Source of the DNA: an uncultured Veillonellaceae bacterium
GTDB lineage: Bacteria > Bacillota > Negativicutes > Selenomonadales > Selenomonadaceae
Reading direction: 5' to 3'
NCBI GenBank assembly: GCA_902773295.1
Contig: CACYDT010000124.1
Coordinates: 1 to 32,464 of the forward strand
Length of the DNA: 32,464 bases
The position numbers and the translations under genes are program-made. Positions within the stretch are counted from its first letter, which is position 1; every line of letters starts with the position of its first letter. The notes under the pieces were generated by a model, which saw only the letters and a program-made list of their open reading frames with translations, did not search any database and was not told where the DNA came from. Shown one piece after another: positions 12,662 through 28,940 of this stretch.

Positions 12662-14407
12662 TCAACGATTTTCTTTCGGCATCCTCATCATCTGAGAGTA
12701 TCCATCTTTCAGGTAATCGCCAAGGAGCGCCGTCTTGAACTTCCTGGGATCCCCATCGGGAAGCTGGTCATTGGCTGTCAGCAGGATATCCAGTGCCCTT
12801 GCCGTCTTGGTAGCCGTCCTGCTCATGTGCATGATGACAATGGCTCCCTTCCGCACGGTTCCATCCTTCTTGTGGACAATGTGATCCATGATCCCCACAA
12901 GGGACTGCATGGATACTGCCCCATAGTCCTCTGTACTGCCATAGCCGTTGATGATATAGGTGTACCCGGCATCCAGTATCTCATAGCAGCCGGCACGGCT
13001 GATGGTCAATGTCGGCGGGCGCAGGAACCTCGTCAGGGCAGGGCGGCGTCCCCCGTCAATCATGATATCTCCCACCAGCTCCGCCAGGATGCGATAAGCT
13101 GACCGCACATCCTCCCGATACTCGTCGATTGGCATGCCCAGGACCGGCTTTCCCCTCTCATCCTCAAGAACCATGGCCTTGTGGGCATTGGTGTGGCTCC
13201 CGATTTCATGGCCTTCCTCGGCAATGGCACGAAGGAGGTTCGGATTCTGATGCACGTTCAAGGTGATGATGAAGAAAGTTCCCTTCGCTTGGTGCTTCCG
13301 AAGCACATAGAGCAGTTTATTGATGGAGTCATCCTGCCCCCAATCGTCAAAAGTAAGAAAGACGGTATTGTCTTTCACGGTCTTCACAAGCCCCGTCTTG
13401 TCGAACTTATATATTTCCCCTCGTGAAAAACCGAGCACGTATTCATGGGAAGCGATATCTTCAGCACCAATGTAGCGATCAAAAAACAGCCGCAAAAAGT
13501 TCTTGTTCGTCACCTGACCGGAGCCGTATTCCGGTCTCAATTCCTCCGGCAAGGAGCCTATATCCACAGCTCTCTCCTCATAGAGCTTTTCCTTGTGATC
13601 AAGAACATCCTGCAGGGAAGATATCCTATAGGCGGAATCGTTGGCAGGATTCATCTCGGGGGTGTCATCCCCGGAACGATAAGCGATGTTATCAATCTTT
13701 TCCTTCTTAATCCTCATCAGAAGTTCGGCAGCCAGCTGATCGTTCTTATAGAAATCCGTGCGCATATGGACAATCTTCCCACGATTCAAAGACGTGACGA
13801 GCCTCCCGAAGATATCCGGCATGACTTCATCCGTGGAAGCAGCCTCCTTGTGCTTTGCTTGCACCACATCGAGTCCCTGTCCTGCAAGAAAGCATCCCTT
13901 GGCTTGCACAGCCTCCAGGATCGGTTGATCGTCCTCTGACTTGGTCATCTGACGCACGATATTCGTCGTTACACCATAGTGCTCCTGAAGCAAGGATTGG
14001 ATGCGCTCAATTTGGGCACAATAGGTTGCAAAATCACCATCCTTCACCGGAACCAGGCCAATCCCCAGATCCTGTCCATAAGAACGTATCAGGGATATAT
14101 TCCCTGCATTGCGACGAAGTTCCCTCTCCGTTACAAAAAAGGTGCCTCGCATCTGATTCTCCTGCATCTTCTCCAGAATGGCCCGAAGAGGCGCTTCCTT
14201 GGAAAAACCGCCAAAAGAAAACAGGACCGCCTGCTCCGTGGATGGAACAAAGAGATGTCTCTCCGCCAGTTTTCCGCCATTCATGGAACGAAGCTGCCCA
14301 TAGTCTGAAGCAGCCAGAACGGAAGCGTCCCCTTGCCAGAGCTGAAGGGCCAACAAGCTGCCGATGAGAGCAGCCCCTGTCCGTTTCCAGTTTCCTTTCC
14401 CCATCAT
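12662..14407 (-). CDS. Exported two-domain NodB polysaccharide deacetylase (copy 1)
   Basis: 581 residues. The ATG follows AGGAG by about 6 bases. A signal-type N-terminus has a hydrophobic stretch (GAALIGSLLALQLWQ). Residues about 58-245 form a degenerate NodB-like domain (VLFSFGGFSKEAPLRAILEK, GTFFVTEREL) that lacks the Asp and His ligands. Residues about 347-570 are a complete carbohydrate esterase 4 domain: TFDDW (Asp354, Asp355), SHTNAH (His405, His409), RFLRPP (460-465) and IVIMHMS (His527). It should remove N-acetyl (or O-acetyl) groups from a periplasmic or surface glycan with a divalent metal. It follows barrel copy 1 by 45 bases. It is a close paralogue of the gene at 17038-18783, nearly collinear along its whole length. 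Confidence 0.92.
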   Translation of the reverse strand: MMGKGNWKRTGAALIGSLLALQLWQGDASVLAASDYGQLRSMNGGKLAERHLFVPSTEQAVLFSFGGFSKEAPLRAILEKMQENQMRGTFFVTERELRRNAGNISLIRSYGQDLGIGLVPVKDGDFATYCAQIERIQSLLQEHYGVTTNIVRQMTKSEDDQPILEAVQAKGCFLAGQGLDVVQAKHKEAASTDEVMPDIFGRLVTSLNRGKIVHMRTDFYKNDQLAAELLMRIKKEKIDNIAYRSGDDTPEMNPANDSAYRISSLQDVLDHKEKLYEERAVDIGSLPEELRPEYGSGQVTNKNFLRLFFDRYIGAEDIASHEYVLGFSRGEIYKFDKTGLVKTVKDNTVFLTFDDWGQDDSINKLLYVLRKHQAKGTFFIITLNVHQNPNLLRAIAEEGHEIGSHTNAHKAMVLEDERGKPVLGMPIDEYREDVRSAYRILAELVGDIMIDGGRRPALTRFLRPPTLTISRAGCYEILDAGYTYIINGYGSTEDYGAVSMQSLVGIMDHIVHKKDGTVRKGAIVIMHMSRTATKTARALDILLTANDQLPDGDPRKFKTALLGDYLKDGYSQMMRMPKENR

Positions 14408-14452: not shown

Positions 14453-16831
14453 TCATTCCTCATCCTTGTACGTCCTGAAATAACCGGTCAGAGCGCCCCA
14501 CGCAGTTTTGCTGGAAACTCCTGTCGCCAAATCCTTCAGATAATAATATTCCATCTCAAAATAAAGATCCCGATGCAATGCATAACCTACGCCAAGTCCA
14601 ATCCCACGAAATCCTCCCCGGCCGGGATAGGCATCTGCACTCATGAGATCCGCCATGCCATTCATCGTATGGCTGACATAGGTCGAACTCGGCTGACGGT
14701 AATACTTCAGCCAATAGGAACTCGATCCGGCCTGCCACATCTTTCCTTTTTCGTAAGACAAGGAAAAGATATATCCAAGCCCATTGCCGACTCTTGAATC
14801 CTGCCCATACAGGAGCATCGCGCCGAAATCAAACATGCCCAGAGGCATTCGATAATTCGCCATGTAGATGTTCCTCGCAGCTCCACGGATATTGTCGAAA
14901 TGGTAATAGCCTGCCTCGGCGGTGTACCCATTCCCCTTGTAAAAGGCAGTAACATCAAGGGCGTGGCTCCCATTGTTCAGGGATCCATACTCGACAGAAT
15001 AATGGACAGGATCCCCTCCTTCTGCGCGCACCCCCTTGAATCTGCTGTCATAGATATTTCCTTCCGCCATCTTGCTGCCAAAAACGCCAGCATGCACTGT
15101 CACAGCTCCGATATTTCCTTCCATGTAATACCTGTCCAGCCTCAATTTGTCGTTTTGCGCCCCTTTCCTTCCCGAAAGGCTGTGCTCCAGCTCTATCATG
15201 CCGCGGGCATGCCAATTGTCGTCAATGTTGAAATCCGGGTAAAGGCGAAGACGCAATCTGCTGCGTCCCCCTATGCCTTCCCTGCCGGAGGAATAGCCGG
15301 AATCAAAGCGCAACTCACCGTCCACTCCAAATCGCCTGCCGGGAACATCACGAACTGGCTGGGTAGAGTACAGTTGATCTATGGCAGCTTCATCATCCAT
15401 GTATTCCGTGCTGAAATATTCCGACAGGAACAGGGAACGAGGACCCGTTGCTTCCGACAGGATCCGTCCGGCCTCCGGAAAGTCCGTCATTCCTACATAG
15501 GATTCCCTGCCGGACATGGATTGGAACCACTGCAATTTTTGCCATGAGCGCACATATTCGTGTGCCGCATACTGGAACTCTTTTTGGTCTTTTTCCGCCG
15601 CTTCCTGCAAAGGCTTCATTGCCTCCTCATCAGCACCGGAAACAGAAGCGTTTGACAGGCTTTCCAAGCTTCGCCTTGCATTCTCCATCCTGTTCCGATA
15701 CTTCGCCAAGGCAGCTTCTGCCTGTTCTCTCGCCGCCTTTCCCTCTGCTTCTTCAGAAGCACGGCACTCCTCCACTGCAGCATCATCCAGATATCCTTCC
15801 TTGACCATCCATGCCTGCAAAGCAGCTTTGGACTGCGCCACCTCCTCCATGATTTCGAAAACAACTGAACTATCTTCCTCATCAGGCAAAGGCTTCGCCA
15901 GCATCCCTGCTTCCTGATGCGCAGGCTCCTGCCCTGCCACTGCCCGGTTCCAAGCCGCTGACACCTTTGCCTGCGCATAGTCGCGCGCAGCCAGCTGGAC
16001 AATCTCCTGGCTCGACTCTGCTTTTTTCTTGAACGATTTCACATCATATAAGTCGTTATCCCCTTGCAAGGAATGGCGCAGAAGCAGTTCCTGGTCCCGC
16101 TTTGCCTTGCCTTCCGCGCTTTTGTATTGGGACAGTGCCTGCAATTCCTTGTTCCTTGAGGATTTCGTCTCCGCTTCTCCCTTCCGTGCCTCTGCTTCCT
16201 GGCCAACTCCGAAGGCGGAAAGCTCCTGCCGGAATTCCTTTTGAAGGAGCACCACATCCGCCATGAATACGGGAAGAGATCCCAGCAGCGCCTCCTGGCG
16301 GGCACGGTCTTGCGCCAGCATGCTATAACGCCATTGCGTCCTTTCCTTTGCCTGGATATAGTCCTGCGCCGCTGCCTGGAGTTCCTTCTGCTTTGCTTCT
16401 GCCAATTCCATCGAAGGGCGCAGGATTTCCATGCGATCCGATCCTTTCACGGAATAATGCGTCAATCTCTCTGCGCTCTTCCTTGCCCAGTCCAATGCCT
16501 GCTTGTACCGCTTCAGTGCATATTCTTCCTGCTCTTTCGATACCTTCCACTGGACTTCGTCCATCATGCACACAAGGGAAATGCGCCCGTACTCATCCAC
16601 AAGGGAACCGGTTTGCGTGGCTTCTATCCGCTTCAATGCCCGGGAAACAACCGCCGCCAATTGCTCGCGTGAGAACGACCTGCACCCGGAAGCCGGAAGC
16701 TCAACAACGCCTTCTGCGCCCAAGCGCATAACAGCATCATAAGCCCACTCCGGCGCCATCGCCATTGCATGGACCGGGCAAACCTGTGCAACGCAAAAAA
16801 GGAATGCACAGGAAGCCGCAACCTGCCTCAC
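14453..16831 (-). CDS. SLH-coiled coil-beta-barrel outer-membrane protein (copy 1)
   Basis: 792 residues from GTG 16831, seven bases after AAGGAGG. A frame open to 16912 runs into the repeat element and is not a real N-terminus. The paralogue at 25987-28365 starts at the same GTG and has the same length. Signal peptide about 1-22 (cleavage near VHA). Residues about 27-70 are one degenerate SLH-like module (WAYDAVMRLGAEGVVELP, then SFSREQLAAVVSRAL), which in Negativicutes tethers outer membrane to peptidoglycan. Residues about 100-470 are Ala/Glu/Gln/Lys-rich with coiled-coil repeats. About 480-792 show alternating beta-strands of a porin (FGVDGELRFDSGYSSGREGI, later MFDFGAMLLYGQDS). It is much longer than a typical OmpM because of the coiled coil. 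Role: porin, tether or polysaccharide exit duct. Confidence 0.85.
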   Translation of the reverse strand: MRQVAASCAFLFCVAQVCPVHAMAMAPEWAYDAVMRLGAEGVVELPASGCRSFSREQLAAVVSRALKRIEATQTGSLVDEYGRISLVCMMDEVQWKVSKEQEEYALKRYKQALDWARKSAERLTHYSVKGSDRMEILRPSMELAEAKQKELQAAAQDYIQAKERTQWRYSMLAQDRARQEALLGSLPVFMADVVLLQKEFRQELSAFGVGQEAEARKGEAETKSSRNKELQALSQYKSAEGKAKRDQELLLRHSLQGDNDLYDVKSFKKKAESSQEIVQLAARDYAQAKVSAAWNRAVAGQEPAHQEAGMLAKPLPDEEDSSVVFEIMEEVAQSKAALQAWMVKEGYLDDAAVEECRASEEAEGKAAREQAEAALAKYRNRMENARRSLESLSNASVSGADEEAMKPLQEAAEKDQKEFQYAAHEYVRSWQKLQWFQSMSGRESYVGMTDFPEAGRILSEATGPRSLFLSEYFSTEYMDDEAAIDQLYSTQPVRDVPGRRFGVDGELRFDSGYSSGREGIGGRSRLRLRLYPDFNIDDNWHARGMIELEHSLSGRKGAQNDKLRLDRYYMEGNIGAVTVHAGVFGSKMAEGNIYDSRFKGVRAEGGDPVHYSVEYGSLNNGSHALDVTAFYKGNGYTAEAGYYHFDNIRGAARNIYMANYRMPLGMFDFGAMLLYGQDSRVGNGLGYIFSLSYEKGKMWQAGSSSYWLKYYRQPSSTYVSHTMNGMADLMSADAYPGRGGFRGIGLGVGYALHRDLYFEMEYYYLKDLATGVSSKTAWGALTGYFRTYKDEE

Positions 16832-16851
16832 AACAACCCCTCCTTGATTTA

Positions 16852-17011
16852 GGCGTGTTGAAAAACTCCACCAGCACACTACAGCGGCCATTTTTCCGCC
16901 TGCCTGCGTCATTGAAACCTTGACGTAGCTCTGCTACGACTGCGGCTTCCCTTCCTTGTCATACGAAAAACTATCTCGCTGTAGCGCACAGTTTCCGTTT
17001 TTCAACACGCC
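16852..17011. repeat. 160-bp MITE-like structured element
   Basis: Perfect 15-bp terminal inverted repeats: GGCGTGTTGAAAAAC at 16852-16866 and GTTTTTCAACACGCC at 16997-17011. Inside, 12 bases from each end, CTACAGCG (16879-16886) pairs with CGCTGTAG (16977-16984). At the centre CGTAGC-TCT-GCTACG forms another hairpin. The element is symmetrical, non-coding and ends about 13 bases before the ribosome site of barrel copy 1. No target-site duplication is obvious. It fills most of the 206-base gap between the two gene modules. Confidence 0.82.
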
Positions 17012-17037: not shown

Positions 17038-18783
17038 CTAAGGTGCTCTGGTATCTTTCGGCATCCTCATCATTTGGGAGTATCCGTCTTTCAGGTAATC
17101 GCCAAGAAGCCCTGTCCTGAATTTCCTGGGATCCCCATCGGGAAGCCGGTCATTGGCCGTCAGCAGGATATCCAGCGCCCTTGAGGTCTTGCTTGCCATG
17201 CTGCTCATATGCATGATGACGATGGAGCCCTTTCGCACGGTTCCATCGCTCTTATGGACGATGCTGTCCAGAATCCCCACAAGGGACTGCAGGGATACTG
17301 CTCCATAGTCCTCTGTGCTGCCATAGCCGTTGATGATATAAGTATATCCCGCATCCAGTATCTCATAGCAGCCGGCACGGCTGACCGCCAAGGTCGGCGG
17401 CCGCAGGAACCTCATCAGGGAAGGACGGCGGCCCCCGTCAATCATGATATCCCCCACTGCTTCCGCCAGGATGCGGTAAGATGACCGCACATCCTCGCGA
17501 TATTCGTCGATGGGCATGCCGGGAACCTGCTTTCCGTTATCATCCCGGTAAGCCATGGGCTTGTGCAGGTTGGTATGGCTTGCGATTTCCTGGCCTTCCT
17601 CGGCAATGGCGCGAAGAAGGTTCGGATTGGTGTTCACGTTCCAGGTAATGATGAAGAAGGTTCCCTTCGCCTGATGCTTCCGAAGCACGTAAAGCAGCTT
17701 GTTGATGGACTCGTCCTGCCCCCAATCATCAAAGGTGAGGAAGATGGTGTTGTCCGTCACGGTCTTCACCACCCCTGTCTTGTCCGCCTTGGCCATTTCC
17801 AGACGCGAAAAGCCCAGCATGCGGTCATCGGAGGATACCGTCGGCGCTCCGATGTAAGCGTCATAGAACTTCTTTGAAAAATTCTTGCCCGTGACCTGGT
17901 CGGCACCGTATTCCGGCCTCATTTCCTCCGGCAGGGATTCCACGTCCACAGGTGCCTGATAGAACATCTCCTTGTGGGAAAGGACATCCTGCAGGGAGGA
18001 TATCCTGTAATCGGAATTGTTGGCGGGATTCATCTCCGGAGTATCCTCCCCCGAGCGATAGGCAATATTGTCTATCTTGTCCTTTTTGATCCGCATCAGA
18101 AGGTCGGCAGCCAGATGATCATCCGCATAAAAGTCCGTGCGCATGTAGACGATTTCCCCACGGTTCAGGGACGTGATCCATTTCCCGAAGATATCCGGCA
18201 TGATCTCGTCCGGGGAACCCGCGTCCTTGTGCTTGGACTGCACCACATTGAGTCCCTGCCCCGCAAGGAAGCATCCCATCGCCTGCACAGCCTCCAAAAG
18301 CGGTGCATCGTCCTCCCCTCCGGACATCTGGTGCACAACATTTGTCGTCACGCCATAGTGCTCCCGAATCATGGATTGGATACGCTCGATCTGGGAGCAA
18401 TATGCTGCAAAATCACCATCTTTCACCGCTACCAGGCCAATGCCCAAATCCTGCCCATAGGAATGTATCAAGTCAATATTGCCCCGATTCCTCTGAAGCT
18501 CCCTCTCTGTCACAAAAAAAGTGCCCCGCATCTTGTTCTCCCGCATCTTTTCCAGGATGGCCCGAAGGGGCGCCTCCTTGGAAAAACCGCCAAAAGAAAG
18601 GATGATGGCCTGCTCCGTTGATGCAACAAAAGGATGCATTTGAGCCAGTTTCCCCCCGTTCTCCGCACGAAGCTTCCCATAGTCCGCAGCGGCCAGCACG
18701 GAAGCCTCCCCCTGCCAGAGCTGGATAGCCAGCAAGCTGCCAAGCAGGACTGCAGCTGCCCGTCTCCACTTCCACTTTCCCAT
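17038..18783 (-). CDS. Exported two-domain NodB polysaccharide deacetylase (copy 2)
   Basis: 581 residues from the ATG at 18783, which is 8 bases from AGGGG; an ATG at 18789 is too close. Same plan as the gene at 12662-14407: a hydrophobic N-terminal segment (AAAVLLGSLLAIQLWQ), an inactive-looking NodB-like first half (IILSFGGFSKEAPLRAILEK), and a complete CE4 second half with TFDDW, SHTNLH, MRFLRPP and IVIMHMS. The HE of copy 1 (GHEIGSH) is QE here (GQEIASH), but the HTNxH metal pair is kept. It starts 18 bases after the GH18-like gene and is the last gene before the repeat element. Expected to deacetylate the polymer made by the synthase in the same operon. Confidence 0.92.
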   Translation of the reverse strand: MGKWKWRRAAAVLLGSLLAIQLWQGEASVLAAADYGKLRAENGGKLAQMHPFVASTEQAIILSFGGFSKEAPLRAILEKMRENKMRGTFFVTERELQRNRGNIDLIHSYGQDLGIGLVAVKDGDFAAYCSQIERIQSMIREHYGVTTNVVHQMSGGEDDAPLLEAVQAMGCFLAGQGLNVVQSKHKDAGSPDEIMPDIFGKWITSLNRGEIVYMRTDFYADDHLAADLLMRIKKDKIDNIAYRSGEDTPEMNPANNSDYRISSLQDVLSHKEMFYQAPVDVESLPEEMRPEYGADQVTGKNFSKKFYDAYIGAPTVSSDDRMLGFSRLEMAKADKTGVVKTVTDNTIFLTFDDWGQDESINKLLYVLRKHQAKGTFFIITWNVNTNPNLLRAIAEEGQEIASHTNLHKPMAYRDDNGKQVPGMPIDEYREDVRSSYRILAEAVGDIMIDGGRRPSLMRFLRPPTLAVSRAGCYEILDAGYTYIINGYGSTEDYGAVSLQSLVGILDSIVHKSDGTVRKGSIVIMHMSSMASKTSRALDILLTANDRLPDGDPRKFRTGLLGDYLKDGYSQMMRMPKDTRAP

Positions 18784-18801
18784 TGTCATCTTCCCCTGAC
18801 A

Positions 18802-19848
18802 TCAATCCTTGTGTTTGCATGCCTTCTCGATATCTGTATTGCCGCCGAGCCTCCAGAGTGCCACATGGCCGACACCCGCATTGGCCGCAACGGTAATCCA
18901 GGCACTGAGCGTCTCGCTGTCTGCATACCAGACCTCGGTGGTCTTCCCGTTCTCCTTATAACTGAAATGGAGGCAAGCACTCCCGGGATCGCGTTCTGCT
19001 TCTGCCTTGTGCTTCTTGCAAAGATCCACGGCTTCCTTCTCCGTCAAGAATTTTTTCTTGTCATAGGAGCTAAGCAAGAACCCTCCTTTCTCCCAGAGGC
19101 ATCCGCCTGTGGCAATCGCCACGCTCTTCTCCCCCGGCAGGCTCTCCATCTTCCGGACAATCTTCCCGATGAACTCCCCGTCGGCCTTCGGGCCGGGACC
19201 GCTATGCTTGCCGTAAAGATTGTAGAGCATCACGACATACTCCGGCCCCTCGCAGTAAGGCGCATCCATGGGGGCTGACGGCTCCAGGATGATGCGCAGC
19301 TTCAAGCCCTGCTCGGAACAGGCAGAAAAGAGAAGAGAAGTGAAGCGCACATAGTTCCGGAACACCGCCTCGTCCTTCCATTCTTTCTCATAGTCCAGCT
19401 CGACCCCCTCGCAGCCCAGTTCCTTTGCCAAGGAAACCATTTTCCCCGCCTGCGCCTCCATGGAAGCGTCATCTGCCAGCAGGCGTTTCAGGAGATCCGT
19501 ATCCTTTTCCTTGGTCTTCCCGTCAGCCGTTACACTGTCATTCACAAAGGACAGGTAGCGCACAATAGCCTCGCTCCCCTTGCTGGAAAGCTTCAGCATA
19601 TCCCGGATTTCCTTGGGAACGAGAAGCTCGTCCTTCTCGTCATAGCACACGGCAAAGCAGGAAACTGCATCCAGGCGCTTCTTTACCTTCCCGTATTCCT
19701 TCTTTCCGCTGTCCGCATCCCAGGATGCCATCCAGGCAGAAAGCTTCACCGGCGGATGCTCCCCGCTCTTTATAGGCTCTGCCATTGCGCAACCGGACAA
19801 CAATATGGTAACAAGGCCAAAGGCCATCGCTCCCAAGTATCGCTTCAT
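18802..19848 (-). CDS. GH18-like glycosidase lipoprotein
   Basis: 348 residues, ATG preceded by GAGGTG. A type II signal peptide ends in the lipobox LSGC (Cys20). The rest reads as a GH18 TIM barrel: the catalytic strand is GCEGVELDYE (145-154), where the family DxxDxDxE appears as ExxExDxE. The acid/base Glu154 and Asp152 are kept, but two Asp are replaced by Glu. The C-terminal part (WYADSETLSAWITVAANAGV, then GHVALWRLGG) matches the YaaH/SleL-type GH18 end. Likely anchored in a membrane facing the periplasm, cutting or binding an N-acetylhexosamine polymer. It starts 14 bases after the PgaB-like gene. Hydrolases of this kind often trim the chain in synthase-dependent exopolysaccharide systems. 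Activity with the altered motif is uncertain. Confidence 0.82.
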   Translation of the reverse strand: MKRYLGAMAFGLVTILLSGCAMAEPIKSGEHPPVKLSAWMASWDADSGKKEYGKVKKRLDAVSCFAVCYDEKDELLVPKEIRDMLKLSSKGSEAIVRYLSFVNDSVTADGKTKEKDTDLLKRLLADDASMEAQAGKMVSLAKELGCEGVELDYEKEWKDEAVFRNYVRFTSLLFSACSEQGLKLRIILEPSAPMDAPYCEGPEYVVMLYNLYGKHSGPGPKADGEFIGKIVRKMESLPGEKSVAIATGGCLWEKGGFLLSSYDKKKFLTEKEAVDLCKKHKAEAERDPGSACLHFSYKENGKTTEVWYADSETLSAWITVAANAGVGHVALWRLGGNTDIEKACKHKD

Positions 19849-19862
19849 ACACTTTCACCTCA

Positions 19863-21776
19863 TCACAAATTATTCAGGAACCAGCCGATCACGGCCTCCC
19901 ACACTGCGTTCGCTGTATACAGGGCTTTCGCCGTGCCTTTGAGCTCCGTGGAAAACACCACGGTCCCATCCTCGTCCCCATCTTCCCAAAAGGAACGAAG
20001 CGTCAGACCATCAAAGACAGCATCATAGACATCATCGCTCAAATTTCTCTGGCTCCACGCCTCTCCCTGCCAGGAAGCCCCCAAGTAGGTGCCTCCGCCT
20101 TCCGGTACATGCAGTTCCAGGTTCGTTGCCGCCGGCTTTCCGTCCACCTGGATGGAAAGGGCATTGCCCCGCAGACTGATGTCCAGTCGATGGTTGCTTC
20201 GTGCATGGAAGCTCTGCGGGCCCTCATAGACCTCTGCGCCTTCCTCCACTGTGGCCGCTGGTTGCTCCTGCCGCGCCTTCGCCCTCGCCAGGTATTCCAT
20301 GCCCTGCTCATCCGATGTGGCATAGCGCGAAAATGCCAGATTTTCCTGCACCTCCGCCTCTTTCCGATGTTCCTCCACCGAAAGGATATGTTCCCCGAGA
20401 ATGACGGGAATCTTCTCCCGGTACAGCTCCTGCTTGGTCCCTCCTAAGGATTCCAGGACCAGCAGCTGGTCATTGAGGAACTCCACGCAGACAGAGGAGG
20501 CAAGATCTTCCGTGGCATGCAGGAAAATCTGCTGCGCACCAAAGGCATTCCCCCGCAGGCGCACAGACAAGCTCAAATCATGCAGTCCCTCGCTCCCCTC
20601 GATCCGGGTGAGCCCTTTCCCTTCCGGCAGCGTTGTCAGGATATAGGTCTCCTCATCCAGCTCCGCGGCGCCTTCCAGAAGCAGCAACTGCTTCTGGCGC
20701 TTGACATCCCCCGGAAGGAACTGAATAGGCTGGTCGATATCATACTTGATGCGCATGAGCAGATGGTTGATGGGCCAATAGGGCTGCGGCTGCATGCGCG
20801 TGAGATCATACAGGCTGCTGTTCCTCTGGTTGAAGCAGAAGCCCTCGCGATTGAAGTTCATCGGGAACATTTCCCGGATCCACCTCTCATTGATGGCGCT
20901 CACATCGCGATTGTTGCCGAAGCGCCCGGTATTGCTGTGCATGAGCACATGCGCCCTCGGAAGGCGTCCCAGGTGTTCCTCGTACAGCTCCTTCATCCGG
21001 GTATAGTCATAGGTCAGCCGCGATTTCATATGGTTGTAGCTTTCCTTTGGAACCGTGTGCTTGTCCCGGATATAGTCCATGAGATAATGGTTGTAGTTCC
21101 TGCCGAGATAGGGCTGGACCTGCGCAAAGCGGAGCGGGTCGATCTCCCCCAGGTAGTTCCCGTAGATATCAAACACATTGATATATTCGAGGCGGCAGCC
21201 ATTGGTGCCCATTTCCCAGAAGGTAGACTCCTCCAATTCCAGAAGCTCGTTGGGCTGCAGGAACTTCAGGTCGCGCGTCAGGAGATTGTTGGCATAGGTC
21301 ATCATGGTGGCCTTGTAGTTCATCTCCTCCAGGATATCCTGGGCGAGAATTGCCGTGTCCCTCCGTCCATCTTCAAACATCAGGAACAGTGCCCTGCGTG
21401 GAAGCGGCTTCCCATGAAGATAATAATTCTCAATGTCCTGCTGGGTGATCGTGACATAGCCTTCTTCCCTCAACGCCTTCAAATGCTTTTCCAGCTGGGC
21501 ATGCCCAATGCGGGCAGAGGTATCGCCGTTGCGGTCCACGCCGAAATAGGACAGGGCGATAAAGCCCGTGACATCCGGCTCTGAGGATATCAGGGATTCA
21601 CTGTAGGGACGGTATTCCTCCTGCACGAAAAAGAGCCGGTAAAGCATCAGTGCCAAAAGAGCCACAACACCAACCTCAACCACCGTGCGCAGGAATTTCC
21701 ATCGGTCCTTGCGGCGGCTGAATGCCGCATCGCAAAGCGCCTTGGTCTTTTCGTCCTTCACTTCCCCGCGCATCAT
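19863..21776 (-). CDS. Membrane-anchored PgaB-like NodB-fold protein
   Basis: 637 residues. The ATG overlaps the synthase stop as ATGA, with AAGGAG upstream. A basic cytoplasmic start leads into one membrane helix (about 31-51), leaving a large periplasmic part. Residues about 70-200 follow the N-terminal half of PgaB/IcaB deacetylases: FIALSYFGV, LEKHLKALREEGYVTITQQD, then LFLMFEDGRRD (131-140) where TFDDG would be. The next motif reads WEMGTNGC instead of an SHxxxH pair, so the metal His ligands look lost. The middle holds a long domain I cannot name, and the C-terminal 150 residues look like a beta-rich, concanavalin-like fold (NHRLDISLRGNALSIQVDG). Probably binds or positions the nascent chain. 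A remote, still active deacetylase cannot be excluded. Confidence 0.75.
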   Translation of the reverse strand: MMRGEVKDEKTKALCDAAFSRRKDRWKFLRTVVEVGVVALLALMLYRLFFVQEEYRPYSESLISSEPDVTGFIALSYFGVDRNGDTSARIGHAQLEKHLKALREEGYVTITQQDIENYYLHGKPLPRRALFLMFEDGRRDTAILAQDILEEMNYKATMMTYANNLLTRDLKFLQPNELLELEESTFWEMGTNGCRLEYINVFDIYGNYLGEIDPLRFAQVQPYLGRNYNHYLMDYIRDKHTVPKESYNHMKSRLTYDYTRMKELYEEHLGRLPRAHVLMHSNTGRFGNNRDVSAINERWIREMFPMNFNREGFCFNQRNSSLYDLTRMQPQPYWPINHLLMRIKYDIDQPIQFLPGDVKRQKQLLLLEGAAELDEETYILTTLPEGKGLTRIEGSEGLHDLSLSVRLRGNAFGAQQIFLHATEDLASSVCVEFLNDQLLVLESLGGTKQELYREKIPVILGEHILSVEEHRKEAEVQENLAFSRYATSDEQGMEYLARAKARQEQPAATVEEGAEVYEGPQSFHARSNHRLDISLRGNALSIQVDGKPAATNLELHVPEGGGTYLGASWQGEAWSQRNLSDDVYDAVFDGLTLRSFWEDGDEDGTVVFSTELKGTAKALYTANAVWEAVIGWFLNNL

Positions 21777-23629
21777 GGCTTTTTCTCCTTCTTCTTGCGC
21801 TCCTTCTCAAGTTCGGCAAGATCCGCAGGCGTCAGGCGCGTCCCCCAGGTGGACTTCCAGAACGTGAACCATGCCACAGGCATCTGCCAGAGCAGCACCG
21901 CCTCGTAGTAGATGCAGAACCACATGCCGAAAATCCATGTCGTACTGCGGCGCAGGAAAAGCTGCGCCATGCTCATCAGAAGCATCATCATGCACATGCC
22001 CACCAGGAATGTCGTTGGGAAAATACGGTGCATCACGGGAACATAGATCAGATTGTAGAGAACGATAACCGGCGCGGCAATGGGAACCAGGAGACCCATG
22101 TAAAAACTCAGGGACATGAACGGCTCCTTTTTCCACATGAACTTGGCCGCAATCAGGGATTCCCTGAGCCAGGAACGCTTCCAGCGCATCTGCTGCTTCA
22201 GGAACATGTTGTAGGAATGGGGGACGATGGTCATGCAGACCGCAGTGTCCTGGTAGGTTGTGCGGTTATACCGCAGAATGAAGTTCGTCATACTGCGGTC
22301 ATCGCCGAACGTCGCCCTCTGCCCCAAAAATTTCTGGTTCAGCCAGGCATCGGAATAACGGAGCACCAAATCCTTGCGGTAGCAAGCCAAAGGACCGGAC
22401 AGGCAGGTAGCGGCATCGAAATACCCCTCTGCTGCCTTCATGATGCGAAAAGCGATATAATAGCGGACGGACTGCATGCGCGTCAAGGCATTGGTATATG
22501 TATTCGCCACATCCGTCCTCCCGGAAACGCCCCCCATTTCCTTGTCCTTGAAGGGCTGCACAATATGGCGCACAGCAAAGGGATCCAGAAAACTGTCGGA
22601 ATCCACAAAGACCAGGAGCTCATGTTTCGCCAGCTTCGCCCCGGCGGCCATGGCATCCCGCTTCCCCATGTTCATCGGCTGTTTCATGTAGGTGACGCGC
22701 TCCGAGACACGGTATACCGCATCCGCCGTGTCGGAGGCTTCCAGCTCTTCGATAGCCTCCTTGATTTTCTCCAGAGAATGGTCGTTGGAACAATCGTCCA
22801 CCACAATGACCTGCAGCTTGTCCACAGGATAGTCCTGGTTGACGCAGCTGTAGATCGTGCGCTTGATCCACTCCTCCTCATTGAAACAGGGAATGATGAT
22901 GGTCACCCCGGGTGTGTATTTCGGATCGATTTTCACCGGACGATAGAACATGGCGAAAAAATACCGGGACAAGAGAAACACGGCGGCAATGATGCTGTAT
23001 AGGTACAACCAGCGGTTGAATCGGAAATAAATGACGGACTCCGCCCGCATGAGCACAATGACAAGCGTAACTACCAAAAGGCAAAAAGCAGAGCCAACCA
23101 GCAGATAATTCTGCCGCTTCGATGCAGCGTACTGCGCCAGCCCCATCTCAAAAGAAAGGCCGCAGATGAAGTCCCCCTGCTTCGTCTGTGCCACGCGGAT
23201 AATCTTCGCCTCCAGACGCGAGATTTCCATTTCATAGCCCTCAGGCATGGAGCCCGGGGTAATCTCGAAAGAGAGCTTCACCCGCCGCATGGTCTTCAGA
23301 AGTTCTGCATCCGCCTCGGAATCCAGCTTTACGAGCATACCCGTCGTGGAGACATCCACGGCTCTTGCATGCATCTTTCCCTGCACGCCCCGTGACTGGA
23401 AGGAAATCATCACATCGTAGTCCACAAGATAGCGCCTGCCGAAGGCATCCTCCTGCTCGTATTCTTCGTAGACGAAGTCATCCCCTTCCTTGTTTGTTGC
23501 CTCCCCACGGCGGTCATGATTGGAACGCATGCCCGTCTTATCCGGAACATAGGACAAAAGACGGCGATCTGCCTTCACCTCATAGAGGACATCCTTGTCT
23601 TCCTTCTTCTGTTCTGCCATGGATTTCAT
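21773..23629 (-). CDS. PilZ-GT2 fusion: hyaluronan-synthase-like polysaccharide synthase
   Basis: 618 residues; the start overlaps the upstream stop (ATGA) with AAGGA 8 bases away. Residues about 60-165 are a PilZ domain with DVSTTG (92-97) and CGLSFE; the Arg motif reads RRYLVD, lacking the second Arg of RxxxR. Two membrane helices follow (about 177-193, 207-228). The GT2 domain has FNEEEW, VVDDCSND (Asp278/279), DSD (343-345), GDDR (442-445) and QQMRW (479-483). The stretch TYQDTAVCMTIVPHSYN, then FLKQQMRWKRSW, is typical of HAS/NodC/Alg8-type synthases. Three or four membrane helices end the protein, with a STWGTR motif. It should polymerise a nucleotide sugar at the inner membrane and push the chain out. 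PilZ suggests c-di-GMP control; the missing Arg makes binding uncertain. Confidence 0.9.
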   Translation of the reverse strand: MKSMAEQKKEDKDVLYEVKADRRLLSYVPDKTGMRSNHDRRGEATNKEGDDFVYEEYEQEDAFGRRYLVDYDVMISFQSRGVQGKMHARAVDVSTTGMLVKLDSEADAELLKTMRRVKLSFEITPGSMPEGYEMEISRLEAKIIRVAQTKQGDFICGLSFEMGLAQYAASKRQNYLLVGSAFCLLVVTLVIVLMRAESVIYFRFNRWLYLYSIIAAVFLLSRYFFAMFYRPVKIDPKYTPGVTIIIPCFNEEEWIKRTIYSCVNQDYPVDKLQVIVVDDCSNDHSLEKIKEAIEELEASDTADAVYRVSERVTYMKQPMNMGKRDAMAAGAKLAKHELLVFVDSDSFLDPFAVRHIVQPFKDKEMGGVSGRTDVANTYTNALTRMQSVRYYIAFRIMKAAEGYFDAATCLSGPLACYRKDLVLRYSDAWLNQKFLGQRATFGDDRSMTNFILRYNRTTYQDTAVCMTIVPHSYNMFLKQQMRWKRSWLRESLIAAKFMWKKEPFMSLSFYMGLLVPIAAPVIVLYNLIYVPVMHRIFPTTFLVGMCMMMLLMSMAQLFLRRSTTWIFGMWFCIYYEAVLLWQMPVAWFTFWKSTWGTRLTPADLAELEKERKKKEKKP

Positions 23630-24576
23630 TCACCATCCTTCTCTGGCTGTGGTTGCGGCTGCGGAATTGCGGGAATGTAATGGATTTTGCGGAAGCGCTC
23701 GAGAGGCGCAATCTCCACGCCGCGCCCCTTCAAAGCGGCAAGAAGCCAATCCACCTTGTCTGCGAGATCCACTTTTCTTGCGATTTTTTCCGGTTTCTCG
23801 TCCTTGATGGTCGGTTTCATGTCCACTGCGGGCCTGTTATCCGACTTCCCCGGAGTCACTGCCTTCGGCTCGACGAAACGCGCCACGGGCACGGCAATGA
23901 TGCTGCCAAAGGGCACCGTGGCCGCATAGGCGGCAACCTGTTCCGGGGTCTCCATAGCCTCCGACCGGAACCAGGCATTCTCCTTCACCGCATAGGGAAT
24001 CCCCGCCGCCTTCACGCTTTTCAGTATCTCATCCTCGTAGCGGATGCGGGGGGCACGGAAATACTTCGGAGTAAATTCCGAGAGCATGGCAATCACCTTC
24101 TGGGTGCGGCAGAGCTGGCTGATTTGCTCCTCCACCGGCTGCTTCTCGATGCCCGTCACTCCGACAAACGTGAAATTTCCTATTTCCTGCCCCGCCTCCT
24201 GGATTGCCTTGAGGGTTTCCGGCTGATCTGCGGCATTCTGCCCTTCCACAAAAAACACTGCCGGAACCTTGTGCCTTGCAAGCACATCCAGAAGGCGCAT
24301 GGTCAGAGGACGCTCTGGCAGGCCGTCAAAGACAATCGCGACCGCAGAAACATTGGCAGGAAGCGTCGTGACTACCTCCGCCGGCTGCAGATCCGCCTTG
24401 CCCCGCTCCTCCATCGCCTTTGCAATCTCCTCCCGTGCCTGGTAAGTGGCGCTCAAATCCGTGATATCCGCCCCCGGATGAGGAGCCTCGATCACATGGT
24501 CGCGGACGTAGATCAGCCCCCCGACGATGACGGCCAAAACCAGCAGGACGATGAGTCCCAGTTTCTTGTAGCTCAT
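23626..24576 (-). CDS. NodB-fold protein with lost catalytic residues (pseudo-deacetylase)
   Basis: 316 residues from ATG 24576 (GGGGGAGG upstream), overlapping a 20-codon mini-ORF as ATGA. One membrane helix (about 6-24) anchors it. The NodB fold is visible: AVAIVFDGLPERP (79-90) stands where TFDDGP should be, VPAVFFVEGQ, EIGNFTFVG (131-139) where GNHTxxH should be, YFRAPRIRY (172-180) and GSIIAVPV where the last His motif should be. Both metal His and one Asp are gone, so it is probably not a deacetylase but a binding or assembly subunit. The tail is proline-rich (PQPQPQP). Its stop overlaps the synthase start, so it is tightly tied to the PilZ-GT2 protein and may be its membrane partner. 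Confidence 0.82.
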   Translation of the reverse strand: MSYKKLGLIVLLVLAVIVGGLIYVRDHVIEAPHPGADITDLSATYQAREEIAKAMEERGKADLQPAEVVTTLPANVSAVAIVFDGLPERPLTMRLLDVLARHKVPAVFFVEGQNAADQPETLKAIQEAGQEIGNFTFVGVTGIEKQPVEEQISQLCRTQKVIAMLSEFTPKYFRAPRIRYEDEILKSVKAAGIPYAVKENAWFRSEAMETPEQVAAYAATVPFGSIIAVPVARFVEPKAVTPGKSDNRPAVDMKPTIKDEKPEKIARKVDLADKVDWLLAALKGRGVEIAPLERFRKIHYIPAIPQPQPQPEKDGE

Positions 24577-24635
24577 TCGCTGCCTCCCCCGCCTGTCCCA
24601 GGAACTGTGGTCTCCTGCTTGTCTGAATCTGTCAT
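24573..24635 (-). CDS. Putative 20-residue coupling mini-ORF
   Basis: In the 79-base gap between dehydrogenase and pseudo-deacetylase, an ATG at 24635 with AAGGAA about 10 bases upstream opens a 20-codon frame (starting MTDSDKQETT, ending GGGGSE). Its TGA overlaps the next ATG as ATGA, as at other junctions of this operon. It is hydrophilic, without a recognisable motif. It may be a coupler rather than a functional peptide. Confidence 0.5.
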   Translation of the reverse strand: MTDSDKQETTVPGTGGGGSE

Positions 24636-24649
24636 GTCGCACAGTTCCT
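24600..24649 (-). promoter_or_regulatory. 10-bp inverted repeat enclosing the mini-ORF start
   Basis: AGGAACTGTG (24600-24609) and CACAGTTCCT (24640-24649) are perfect complements with 30 bases between. In the minus-strand RNA the upstream arm contains the mini-ORF ribosome site and the loop its ATG, so folding would block initiation. It could also be an mRNA processing or stability element. No T tract follows. Confidence 0.5.
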
Positions 24650-24655
24650 TACAAT

Positions 24656-25990
24656 TTATAGTCTCCAATAAAAATATCCTCTTGCCTCGAATTCCTGCCG
24701 GGAATACATGGCCTTTACATCCACCAAGATTTTTTTCTTTCCCGGATTCCCGTAGAAGCGCCCGATATCCTCCGGGGAGAAGTGCCGGTATGCCTCGTGC
24801 GCCACCAGGAACACAAGGCAATCCGCATCGACGATTTGAGAAGGATCCACAAGGCGGATCCCATATTCTTTCCAAAAAGCCTCGGGATCAGCCATGGCAT
24901 CCGATGCCTGGGGATGAAGCCCATAGTCCTCCAAACGGCGGTAGATATCCACCGAGCGCGAGTTCCTCGTGTCCGGGCAGTCTTCCTTGAATGTCATGCC
25001 CAACAGGAACACCTTCGCATGGCTGGCATCTACGCCTGCCCGCAACATGGTCTTCACGGTTTCTTGCGCCACAAAATCGCTCATGCCGTCATTGACATGC
25101 CTTCCTGCTGCAATGATCTGGGAATAGTAACCGAGGGTTTCCGCCTCATAGATGAAATAATGGGGATCGACTCCGATGCAGTGCCCCCCTACCAGGCCGG
25201 GACGGAAGCCCAGGGCATTCCACTTCGTATCCATGGCCTTTGCCACCTCATCGGTATCAATGCCCATCCGATGAAACACGATGGACAGCTCATTCATGAA
25301 GGCGATATTGATATCGCGCTGTGCGTTCTCCACGAGTTTCGCCGCCTCCGCCACCCGGATGTCCGGCGCCTCATAGACATGATCGATGACCATTTGGTAG
25401 ACCGCTGCGATCTCGTGCCTCGACTCCGCATCCATCCCCGCAACGATCTTCACAATGTTCTTCAGGCGATGCTTCCGATCCCCGGGATTGATGCGTTCCG
25501 GCGAATAGCCAATCTTGAAATCCTTCCCGCAAACAAGGCCCGACACCTTTTCCAGAACGGGCTTGCAGACATCCTCCGTCACCCCCGGGTACACAGTGGA
25601 CTCATAAACGACAATGCTGCCCGCAGAAAGATACTTTGCCACGGTGCGCGTCGCAGACTGCACCGGATCAAGGTCCGGCGTCTTGTCCCTGTTGATGGGT
25701 GTCGGCACAGAAACGATAATGAAGCATGCCTCGGAAAGCCTGGCAGGATCCGAAGTGAACTCAATTGCCGCCTCCTTGAGCGCATCGTTCCCAATCTCTT
25801 CCGTGACATCCTCTCCCCTGCGATATGCCTTGAGCTTTTCCTCGTTCTGATCAAACCCTATCACAGAAAAACATGCGGCAAACGCGGCTGCCAGAGGCAG
25901 GCCTACATATCCCAGACCAACCACGGCCAGCTTCGAGGTCCCTTCCTGCAAGCGTTTCAGTATATCCATTCTCCAAGCCTCCAAATTCAT
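24656..25990 (-). CDS. Nucleotide-sugar 6-dehydrogenase (TviB/WbpO/WbpA type)
   Basis: 444 residues. The start at 25990 overlaps the barrel-protein stop as ATGA; an ATG at 25969 with GGAGG 8 bases before it is a good alternative. The Rossmann motif VVGLGYVGLP is at 24-32, IIVSVPTP at 91-98 and ESTVYPGVTED at 130-140. YSPERINPGD (162-171) and GGHCIGVDPHYF (catalytic Cys271) are typical of the UDP-HexNAc dehydrogenase branch rather than the UDP-glucose branch. It oxidises C6 of a UDP-N-acetylhexosamine twice with NAD+ to give a UDP-hexosaminuronic acid, a polymer precursor. It is the only precursor enzyme in the operon, so the polymer probably contains an acidic sugar. Which hexosamine epimer is used cannot be read from motifs by eye. 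Confidence 0.92.
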   Translation of the reverse strand: MNLEAWRMDILKRLQEGTSKLAVVGLGYVGLPLAAAFAACFSVIGFDQNEEKLKAYRRGEDVTEEIGNDALKEAAIEFTSDPARLSEACFIIVSVPTPINRDKTPDLDPVQSATRTVAKYLSAGSIVVYESTVYPGVTEDVCKPVLEKVSGLVCGKDFKIGYSPERINPGDRKHRLKNIVKIVAGMDAESRHEIAAVYQMVIDHVYEAPDIRVAEAAKLVENAQRDINIAFMNELSIVFHRMGIDTDEVAKAMDTKWNALGFRPGLVGGHCIGVDPHYFIYEAETLGYYSQIIAAGRHVNDGMSDFVAQETVKTMLRAGVDASHAKVFLLGMTFKEDCPDTRNSRSVDIYRRLEDYGLHPQASDAMADPEAFWKEYGIRLVDPSQIVDADCLVFLVAHEAYRHFSPEDIGRFYGNPGKKKILVDVKAMYSRQEFEARGYFYWRL

Positions 25991-28365
25991 TGATCATTCC
26001 TATAATTGCTGAAATAACCGGTCAACGCTCCCCATATCGTGCTGCTGGCAGCACCTGTCGCCAAATCCCTCAAATAATAGTACTCCAATCCCATATAAAG
26101 ATCCGGGCAAATCGTATAGTTCGCTCCCAGCCCTATGCCGCGAAAACCGCCCCGCCCCGGAAGGGCATCAGCGCTCATGAGATCTGCCATACCGTTCATC
26201 GTATGGCTGACATAGGTCGAACTCGGCTGGCGGTAGAGCTTCAACCAATAGGAGAGCGCTCCGGCCTGCCACATCTTATCCATCCCGTAAGCCAGGGACA
26301 AGATATAGCCGAACCCGTTTCCGGCTCTGGCATCCTGCCCATACAGAAGCATCGCGCCGAAATCAAAAACCCCCAATGGCATTCGATACTTCGCCATGTA
26401 GATATTCCTGGCCGCCCCACGGATATCGTCAAAATGATAATACCCGGCTCCGGCAGTATAGCCGGTTCCCTTGTAGGAGGCTGTGACATCAAGGGCATGG
26501 CTCCCATTGTTCACGGAACCGTATTCGGCAGTATACTGGACCGGGTCTCCCCCTGATACGCGCACGCCCTTGAACCTGCTGTCGTAAATATTCCCTTCGG
26601 CCATATTGCTGCCAAAAACACCGGCATCCACTTTCACATCCCCGATGTTCCCTTCGAGATAATACCTGTCCAGTCTCAGTCTGTCATTTTTCGCCCCTTC
26701 TTTTCCCGAAAGGGTGTGCTCCAGTTCTATCATGCCAAGGGCATGCCAGTTGTTGTCAATGTTGAAATCCGGATAGAAACGGAAACGCAGCCTGGTACGC
26801 CCTCCAATGCCTTCCCTGCCGGAAGAATACCCGGAATCCAGCCGCACCTCTCCGCCAATCCTGAATTTCCTGACAGGGATATCGCGAACCGACTGAGCAG
26901 AAAACAGTTGTTCCGCAGCAGCTTCATCATCCATGTATTCCGGACTGAAATATTCCGACAGGAACAGGGAACGGGTTCCCGTTGCCTCCGACAAGACCTG
27001 CCCCGCCTGCGGAAATCCCGCCATTGCTGCAGAAGGCTCCTTGCCGGCCACGGATTGGGACCATTGCAATTTTTGCCATGACCGCACATACTCGCGTGCC
27101 GCATACTGGAATTCCTTCTGGTCTTTTTCCGCCGCTTCCTGCAAAGGCTTCATGGCATCCTCATCAACACCGGAAACAACGGCATTTGACAGGCTTTCCA
27201 AGCTTCGCCTTGCCTGTTCCATCTTGCTCCGGTACTTGGCCAGCGCAGCTTCTGCCTGCTCTCTCGCCGCCTTTTCCTCAGCTCCCTCGGAAGCACGCCG
27301 CCCCTCCACCGCCGCATCATCCAGATATCCTTCCTTGACCATCCATGCCTGCAAAGCGGCTTTGGACCGCGCCACCTCCTCCATGATTCCGGAAACCGCC
27401 GAACCTTTTTCCTCCTTCGGCAAAACTCTCGGCGATGTCCCCGCTTCTTTCTGCACGGGATCCTGCCCCGCCGTCGCCCGGTTCCAGGCTGCTGACACCT
27501 TGGCCTGTGCATAGTCGCGTGCTGCCAGCTCAACAGCTTCCTGGCTCGACTCCGCTTTTTCCTTCAGATATTCCATGCGTTCCAGCCGGTTCTCCCCTCG
27601 CAGGGAACGGCGCAGGAGCCATTCCTGATCCCGTTTGGCCTTGCCCTCTGCCCTTTTGTATTGGGACAGTGCCTGTGATTCCTGATTTTTTGCAGATTTC
27701 GTCTTCCTCTCGTCCTTCTTCGCCTCTGCTTGCATAGCTGCCCCGGAAGCAGACAGTTCCTGCTGGAATTCCTTTTGAAGAAGCACCACATCTGTCATGA
27801 ATAGAGGAAGAGATCCCAGCAGCGCCTCCTGGCGCGCACGGTCTTGCTGCAACATGGTATAACGCCATTGCGTCCTTTCCTTTGCCTGGATATAGTCCTG
27901 CGCCGCTGTCTGGAGTTCCTCCTGCTTTGTTTCCGCCAATTCCAACGAAGGACGCAGAATCTCCATGCGCTCTGACCCTTTCACGGAATAATGCGTCAAT
28001 CTCTGTGCGCTCTTCCCTGCCCAGTCCAATGCCTGCTTGTACCGCTTCAGCGCATATTCTTCCTGCTCTTTCGATATCTTCCATTGGACTTCGTCCATCA
28101 TGCATACAAGGGAAATGCGCCCATACTCATCCACAATGGAATCGGCTTGCGTGGCTTCTATCCGCTTCAATGCCTTGGAAACAACCGCCGCCAGTTGCTC
28201 GCGCGAGAACGACCTGCACCCGGAAGAGGGCAGTTCAACGATGCCTTCTGCGCCCAAGCGCATAACGGCATCATACGCCCACTCCGGCACCATCGCCTCT
28301 GCATGGACAGGGCAAACCTGTGCAGCACAAACAAGGAATGCACAAGAAGCCGCAACCTGCCTCAC
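25987..28365 (-). CDS. SLH-coiled coil-beta-barrel outer-membrane protein (copy 2, operon head)
   Basis: 792 residues from GTG 28365, after AAGGAGG. Signal peptide about 1-22 (AASCAFLVCAAQVCPVHA). One SLH-like module at about 27-70 (WAYDAVMRLGAEGIVELP, then SFSREQLAAVVSKAL), a coiled coil at about 100-470 rich in KEEYALKRYKQAL-like heptads, and a barrel at about 480-792 (KFRIGGEVRLDSGYSSGREG). It is almost collinear with the protein at 14453-16831, with most changes in the middle of the coiled coil. It is the first gene after the TTGACA promoter, and its stop overlaps the dehydrogenase start. That makes it part of the polysaccharide operon, consistent with a dedicated outer-membrane channel or envelope tether. 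A general porin duplicated into the locus is the alternative. Confidence 0.85.
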   Translation of the reverse strand: MRQVAASCAFLVCAAQVCPVHAEAMVPEWAYDAVMRLGAEGIVELPSSGCRSFSREQLAAVVSKALKRIEATQADSIVDEYGRISLVCMMDEVQWKISKEQEEYALKRYKQALDWAGKSAQRLTHYSVKGSERMEILRPSLELAETKQEELQTAAQDYIQAKERTQWRYTMLQQDRARQEALLGSLPLFMTDVVLLQKEFQQELSASGAAMQAEAKKDERKTKSAKNQESQALSQYKRAEGKAKRDQEWLLRRSLRGENRLERMEYLKEKAESSQEAVELAARDYAQAKVSAAWNRATAGQDPVQKEAGTSPRVLPKEEKGSAVSGIMEEVARSKAALQAWMVKEGYLDDAAVEGRRASEGAEEKAAREQAEAALAKYRSKMEQARRSLESLSNAVVSGVDEDAMKPLQEAAEKDQKEFQYAAREYVRSWQKLQWSQSVAGKEPSAAMAGFPQAGQVLSEATGTRSLFLSEYFSPEYMDDEAAAEQLFSAQSVRDIPVRKFRIGGEVRLDSGYSSGREGIGGRTRLRFRFYPDFNIDNNWHALGMIELEHTLSGKEGAKNDRLRLDRYYLEGNIGDVKVDAGVFGSNMAEGNIYDSRFKGVRVSGGDPVQYTAEYGSVNNGSHALDVTASYKGTGYTAGAGYYHFDDIRGAARNIYMAKYRMPLGVFDFGAMLLYGQDARAGNGFGYILSLAYGMDKMWQAGALSYWLKLYRQPSSTYVSHTMNGMADLMSADALPGRGGFRGIGLGANYTICPDLYMGLEYYYLRDLATGAASSTIWGALTGYFSNYRNDQ

Positions 28366-28397
28366 AACAACCCCCTCCTTGCTTCAATATCCTATTT

Positions 28398-28426
28398 ATC
28401 CTAACTCTTGCAACAGAAAATGTCAA
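28398..28426 (-). promoter_or_regulatory. Sigma70-type promoter of the polysaccharide operon
   Basis: A perfect -35 TTGACA (plus-strand 28421-28426), a 17-base spacer and -10 TAGGAT (28398-28403). The start would fall near 28391, leaving only about 25 bases of leader, so there is no room for a riboswitch. It is the only convincing promoter found upstream of the train of genes down to 17038. Confidence 0.7.
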
Positions 28427-28896: not shown

Positions 28897-28940
28897 AAAG
28901 AAGAAGGGCACAGCATTTTGCTGTGCCCTTCTTCTTTCCT
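28897..28940. terminator. Intrinsic terminator, probably bidirectional
   Basis: Arms 28897-28915 and 28919-28937 pair perfectly over 19 bp (AAAGAAGAAGGGCACAGCA and complement) around TTT, followed on the plus strand by TTTCCTATTTTT. The Cys-rich feo gene on the minus strand ends at 28939, right at the stem, so it likely shares it. Confidence 0.85.

Follow-up and report, generated by a model that had tools for sequence, protein, structure and literature searches.

The outer-membrane proteins BcsC and PgaA, of the secretion systems for cellulose (Bcs) and poly-N-acetylglucosamine (PNAG; PgaABCD/IcaADBC), combine tetratricopeptide repeats (TPRs) with a barrel. Control by cyclic dimeric GMP (c-di-GMP) is associated with a PilZ domain, which is C-terminal in the cellulose synthase BcsA and sits on the separate protein Alg44 in alginate (Alg) systems (PMC8461298). 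TPRs plus barrel is also the layout of the exporter NfrA of Escherichia coli, and the corresponding Nfr system (NfrA/NfrB) contains a c-di-GMP-binding glycosyltransferase of family GT2 with MshEN instead of PilZ, carries no deacetylase or GH18 gene in its operon and uses UDP-ManNAc as substrate (PMC8669469). The window analysed here, a stretch of 32,464 nucleotides (contig CACYDT010000124.1 of assembly GCA_902773295.1) from an uncultured Veillonellaceae bacterium of the Negativicutes, carries a gene cluster for a barrel protein, a nucleotide-sugar dehydrogenase, a NodB protein, a PilZ-GT2 synthase, a PgaB-like protein, a GH18-like lipoprotein and a CE4 deacetylase. We propose, with a probability of roughly 0.72, that it encodes a c-di-GMP-controlled, synthase-dependent exopolysaccharide system whose product leaves two-membrane (diderm) cells via a barrel derived from OmpM, the stalked porin family of the Negativicutes. 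An earlier note, made from the letters of the window, had listed these main parts and read them as a distinct synthase-dependent polysaccharide system. The parts were recovered by open reading frame (ORF) and profile searches and the reading holds, as the gene order recurs across relatives rather than being unique to the strain, and the open-licence full texts searched (subscription papers and preprints lay outside this scope) contain neither a description of the cluster nor a characterised polysaccharide locus matching it in detail. It appears to be a previously undescribed machinery for the c-di-GMP-controlled synthesis and modification of a sugar polymer.

Relation to described systems

The cluster has in common with PNAG systems a GT2 synthase, a protein of PgaB fold, deacetylation and, in Sporomusa, a version of the outer-membrane protein with TPRs and barrel. 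It differs from them in a synthase that carries a PilZ domain and is nearer to NodC and hyaluronan synthase, an altered site in the PgaB-like protein, the presence of CE4 and GH18 as separate proteins and a barrel of OmpM type. Cellulose and alginate systems likewise share a PilZ-controlled GT2 enzyme, periplasmic modification, an outer-membrane barrel and TPRs, the latter present here in one clade; however, PilZ is placed N-terminally on the synthase, the modifying enzymes form a NodB/CE4/GH18 set and the barrel is again OmpM-like. The Nfr system corresponds in pairing a GT2 enzyme that binds c-di-GMP (binding being predicted in our case) with a TPR/outer-membrane pore protein. Hyaluronan synthase, NodC and chitin synthase agree in the GT2 family and the GDDR and QxxRW motifs, but the fused PilZ domain, the NodB/CE4/GH18 partners and a dehydrogenase of HexNAc type set the cluster apart. 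The OmpM porins (PMC10628300), finally, resemble the barrel protein in their 16 strands, helical stalk and start similar to a surface-layer homology (SLH) domain, whereas the linkage to a polysaccharide operon, the conserved loops L3 and early L7 and a variable stalk, made of TPRs in Sporomusa, distinguish the protein described here.

Synthase and predicted control by c-di-GMP

The synthase (618 residues; 21773..23629, minus strand as are all genes of the operon) is a processive GT2 enzyme with the QxxRW motif that is general to synthase-dependent systems. Among the families tested NodC and hyaluronan synthase are nearest, with a NodC profile score of 169 bits against 102 bits for PgaC/IcaA (cut-off 422) and an E-value of 1e-36 to the hyaluronan synthase structure 8smm. 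The catalytic motifs DD, DSD and GDDR, like the Q, R and W of QxxRW, show no variation among 97 sequences. The PilZ domain was detected by Pfam in residues 66-162 (23144..23434, minus strand); its DxSxxG motif is kept, with S and G present in all 97 sequences and D in 93. About 25 residues upstream of the usual RxxxR position, N-terminal of the domain, lies a conserved R[ST]NxDRR segment with invariant arginines (one sequence is gapped here), which takes the place of the RxxxR of other PilZ proteins. The genome contains 24 GGDEF and 2 PilZ matches.

A further level of control is predicted in relatives. A c-di-GMP-I riboswitch is located 39-218 nucleotides before the first operon gene in 17 of them, 16 diderm and one with a single membrane (monoderm; Anaerocolumna, locus L115). 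Sixteen score 59-82 bits against the Rfam model RF01051, whose gathering score is 35, and the one in locus L082 was detected solely by a model built in this analysis. In all 17 loci an intrinsic terminator uses the 3' strand of the aptamer as its 5' arm, and because of this overlap c-di-GMP is predicted to turn the operon on, the direction of regulation being deduced from the arrangement of the two elements. The 2.2 Mb of loci contain one other riboswitch match, just beyond the GH18 gene of locus L044 (6968-7043).

Conservation of the cassette and distribution of the barrel

The comparison covered 380 Negativicutes genomes, the best 80 loci of a named genome collection and 120 neighbourhoods, some genomes being represented twice. 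Related genomes were counted individually, a number of genomes are incomplete, and the diderm Firmicutes covered were the Negativicutes, not the Halanaerobiales. The synthase is present in 74 of the 380 genomes at 56-90% identity and reaches 57-74% in the 80 collection loci, which include the monoderm genera Clostridium, Butyrivibrio, Anaerocolumna, Pseudoramibacter and Paenibacillus. Across the 120 neighbourhoods the recurring order is barrel (where present), dehydrogenase, NodB/CE4, PilZ-GT2, PgaB-like and GH18, and clustering of all neighbour genes revealed no further family in more than 12 loci. Among 291 sampled genomes of the class to which Clostridium drakei belongs, only one besides C. 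drakei itself had the cassette, which is thus far more frequent in the Negativicutes. Loci of the monoderm genera Clostridium, Butyrivibrio, Anaerocolumna and Paenibacillus have the enzymatic core in this gene order and lack the barrel; the earlier view that the operon as a whole was built for a diderm is thus not supported, and the barrel alone is the diderm part.

A barrel family member scoring above 200 bits accompanies the synthase in 74 of 74 synthase-positive Negativicutes (above 300 bits in 70); of the 306 synthase-negative genomes, one exceeds 300 bits. This exception, in the near-complete genome G140 (G140:C34:899-2263; 467 bits, no detected synthase), may be a relic or reflect an assembly break. 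Unlinked OmpM-like porins of the family f2 genomes, Acidaminococcus among them, score 160-270 bits with the same profile. No credible barrel match was found in 51 loci of monoderm lineages, some of them on contigs with too little upstream sequence for a judgement, and the single weak match (E 0.0015) falls inside a synthase. With BamA as an independent marker of an outer membrane, tested on 50 loci, the barrel was present in 16 of 16 assessable BamA-positive genomes and in one of 33 BamA-negative genomes, the latter a 75%-complete metagenome-assembled genome of Dialister, itself a member of the Negativicutes (L100). Locus L113 is BamA-positive without a visible barrel, its contig ending inside the CE4 gene; both L113 and L122 are labelled Acholeplasmataceae yet carry BamA, and some names of such assemblies look wrong. 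By sequence comparison, the barrel appears as a diderm-only addition to a core common to one- and two-membrane bacteria, and the earlier view of it as a candidate exit channel is supported: it is a good candidate, being the one diderm-only gene of the cassette.

The barrel protein and its proposed function

Barrel 1 (792 residues; 25987..28365, minus strand) consists of a signal peptide, a weakly SLH-like start, a helical stalk and a barrel unnamed by Pfam and NCBIfam families. An AlphaFold2 (AF2) model based on 28 homologues predicts 16 strands in residues 501-786, and its best fold match is OmpM1 of Veillonella parvula (TM-score 0.81 by Foldseek; Z 27.9, rmsd 2.4 over 281 residues by VIA-align), followed by other porins at Z of about 20-22. 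AlgE, PgaA and BcsC are not among the best 50 Foldseek or VIA-align matches, which is in itself no evidence of difference. The profile scores of the unlinked OmpM-like porins suggest that the operon barrel arose from such porins. In OmpM1 the constriction is formed by the inward-folded loops 3 and 7 (PMC10628300), and the most conserved loop residues of the barrel family fall in these two loops. L3 (SNMAEGNIYDS; 26578..26610, minus strand) is the family's most conserved loop with 3.55 bits per column against 1.41-2.19 in the other extracellular loops, and the first half of L7 (SSTYVSHTMNG; 26191..26223, minus strand) contains the invariant residues T717, H721, M723 and G725.

The part in front of the barrel is variable. 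The SLH domain assigned in the earlier note was not detected by Pfam in the window protein at E 0.1, although the first ~75 residues show weak similarity to the SLH start of OmpM-type porins encoded elsewhere in this genome (E 2e-4 and 5e-4), and an SLH-like start is found in many family members. Instead of the coiled coil noted before, the stalk is composed of three alpha-hairpin repeats of ~100 residues (scores 115-144; shuffled maximum 55-69), and it is nearly absent in L082 and L045. The statement that the locus has no TPR protein is correct for the window but not for the family: in four Sporomusa proteins of 1084-1134 residues N-terminal TPR repeats precede the same barrel, which forms the last ~280 residues. 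A PgaA-type combination of TPRs and barrel was seen solely in these Sporomusa relatives, and the barrel itself is nearest to OmpM1.

Several observations weigh against polymer export by this barrel or against c-di-GMP control of the system. The top fold matches are porins, and OmpM1 itself serves as nutrient porin and tether with an eyelet of only ~3.7 Å (PMC10628300); polymer export by any OmpM was not found in the literature searched. The barrel model has a pTM of 0.43, and the placement of the stalk in it is unreliable. The barrel and no-barrel groups are split on one branch of the synthase tree (support 99), so that the correlation between barrel and diderm envelope reflects a single evolutionary gain or loss, not many, which limits how far the correlation alone proves function. 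In terms of regulation, the canonical RxxxR directly before the first PilZ strand is not kept in the 97 sequences, and the window contains no c-di-GMP-I riboswitch.

In an alternative reading, the barrel would serve for tethering or adhesion in the manner of OmpM, either anchoring the envelope or keeping the polymer close to the cell surface, and the polymer itself would exit elsewhere. The documented tether and porin roles of OmpM (PMC10628300), the narrow OmpM1 eyelet and the SLH-like start of many members are in line with such a role. However, it is the presumed anchoring part that is not conserved, being replaced by TPRs in Sporomusa and almost lost in two loci, while the barrel and its constriction loops are, and no other gene for an outer-membrane channel recurs in the cassette; we consider a pure tether rather unlikely.

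Enzymes predicted to act on precursor and chain

The dehydrogenase (24656..25990, minus strand) is of the UDP-HexNAc 6-dehydrogenase (TviB-like) type according to its profile matches (TviB model 417 bits, cut-off 592; TIGR03026 375 bits, over the cut-off) and is the sole full-length one found in this genome. It is lacking in many loci of monoderms and in a few of diderms, so a uronic sugar may not be universal.

The NodB protein downstream (23626..24576, minus strand) carries a membrane anchor and matches PF01522 at 1.1e-21. Its metal ligands are lost (FDG.., and NFTFV in place of the His pair) and no FDDx..HxxxH site is present, in agreement with its previous description as dead. A GTG-initiated ORF extends to 24642, but we place the start at ATG 24576 because the gap to the dehydrogenase gene is about 10-20 nucleotides in several relatives, whose NodB proteins have 311-318 residues; a mini-ORF formerly proposed between the two genes is not conserved in relatives. 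The CE4 deacetylase a (17038..18789, minus strand) combines a degenerate N-terminal NodB domain with an intact C-terminal CE4 domain (FDDW, SHTNLH). A single protein of ~800-1175 residues unites degenerate NodB domains with one CE4 domain in Sporomusaceae and monoderms, and the window NodB and CE4a align to residues 1-300 and 355-872, respectively, of an 887-residue multi-NodB protein of Sporomusa. The separate window genes appear to be products of fission of such a fused gene. One intact FDDW..HxxxH site, always in the last domain, was found in 69 of 69 fused proteins, and since the degenerate domains adjoin one working site, they might bind or guide the chain. The synthase ORF of a Lachnospiraceae locus (L132, 2838-6271) runs in frame into a further domain at the contig end; a GT2-PgaB fusion was rejected as the extra part is NodB1-like, which leaves a possible synthase-NodB fusion. 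The GH18-like protein (18802..19848, minus strand) is, as noted earlier, a lipoprotein with the lipobox LSGC and a PF00704 match of E 2.4e-6, just below the curated cut-off; in its DxxDxDxE motif the catalytic Glu and the third Asp are kept in 87 of 87 sequences and the second Asp is mostly Glu.

The matches of the CE4 proteins to PdaA/PdaB and peptidoglycan deacetylase models, all below cut-offs, and the presence of the core in monoderms would fit a role in the synthesis or modification of a glycan that is associated with the cell wall or peptidoglycan and kept in the envelope. A processive NodC/hyaluronan-synthase-like enzyme, the c-di-GMP control in relatives and a dedicated outer-membrane barrel in diderms rather point to an exported polymer and render an envelope-bound product quite improbable.

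The PgaB-like protein (19863..21776, minus strand) was modelled by AF2 (pLDDT 87) with a transmembrane helix, a NodB fold related to the N-domain of PgaB (TM-score 0.76; profile E 1.2e-8) and a CBM66-like jelly roll (TM-score 0.75). Its earlier assignment as PgaB-like is valid for the fold, but the D-H-H site of PgaB is missing: FEDG replaces FDDG in 96 of 96 sequences and the His pair is absent. As the altered site is invariant, the segment replacing the His pair (GTNGYR in most) is itself strongly conserved and 29 diverse members agree without exception in more than 60 columns, the site fits better with repurposing than with decay, and we would guess that the protein carries out a reaction on the chain other than deacetylation. 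A diverged PNAG (Pga/Ica) system, to which the PgaB-like N-domain and the PgaC match might point, is very improbable in view of the higher scores of NodC and hyaluronan synthase, the altered PgaB site, the separate CE4 and GH18 proteins, the dehydrogenase in most diderm loci and the lack of a further conserved gene that could be PgaD.

Operon boundaries and duplicated genes

ATGA overlaps, reported before at several junctions, occur at three (barrel/dehydrogenase, NodB/GT2 and GT2/PgaB-like). The single promoter assumed earlier corresponds to a match TTGACA-17-TAGGAT (28398..28426, minus strand; 10/12 consensus) ahead of the operon, but such matches are no commoner than in shuffles (13 against 11.0, sd 3.5). 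Upstream on the same strand lies feoB (29132-31027), separated from the operon by a strong terminator-like hairpin at 28897-28937. The operon does not end at 17038, as was first assumed, but extends to 12662 with a second barrel (14453..16912, minus strand; homologous start at GTG 16831) and a CE4 deacetylase b with an equally intact D-H-H metal site (12662..14407, minus strand). Barrel 2 is 79% identical to barrel 1 in amino acids and 83% in DNA, CE4b 80% to CE4a in DNA, and the sequences 5' of the two barrels are unrelated to each other. The duplication looks local because locus L053 of the same genus has neither copy within the 10.5 kb that its contig shows past its CE4 gene. As the operon opens with the barrel gene and closes with that for CE4, duplication of the whole operon and subsequent loss of the middle genes would explain the pair. 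Another barrel-CE4 rearrangement was observed in Pectinatus frisingensis (L142, 7629-16105), whose cluster has a short fragment of a barrel in its early part and, late in the cluster, a second, separate barrel ahead of CE4.

Mechanistic scenario and implications

Consistent with the parts, their order and conservation, the diderm-only barrel, the riboswitch with overlapping terminator in relatives and the lost sites, all read from sequence or predicted structures, we propose the following scenario for the system. In many relatives, binding of c-di-GMP to the riboswitch would permit transcription of the operon, and in all members the N-terminal PilZ domain, presumably by binding c-di-GMP, is likely to exert a second, allosteric control on the synthase. 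The dehydrogenase would supply a UDP-uronic acid, probably UDP-HexNAcA, and the GT2 enzyme would polymerise a hexosamine-containing chain and push it across the inner membrane. Outside this membrane, the anchored degenerate NodB domains might bind or guide the chain, the PgaB-like protein with its repurposed site and lectin-like domain might handle it, the one active type of CE4 deacetylase would act on it and the GH18-like lipoprotein might trim or release chains. An acidic, partly deacetylated, hexosamine-containing polymer is a plausible product. In diderms only, it would finally leave the cell through the dedicated, OmpM-derived 16-stranded barrel on its variable periplasmic stalk. A more detailed version, to which we give somewhat less than even odds, is that an OmpM-type stalked porin became an exit channel dedicated to the polysaccharide. 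Its constriction loops would be adapted to this polymer, its periplasmic stalk (SLH/hairpin or TPR) would be exchangeable, and it would have joined a synthase cassette whose other members operate in bacteria with one membrane; the PgaB-like partner would catalyse a new non-deacetylase reaction on the chain.

No study of the passage of polysaccharides across the outer membrane of diderm Firmicutes was found in the open-licence literature. Since bacteria of both envelope types possess the same synthase cassette, its envelope-specific part can be identified by comparison, and this part is a member of the Negativicutes' own porin family. Moreover, c-di-GMP signalling has been described as unstudied in Selenomonas (PMC13339959), and the proposed system would tie c-di-GMP to a defined output in the Negativicutes.

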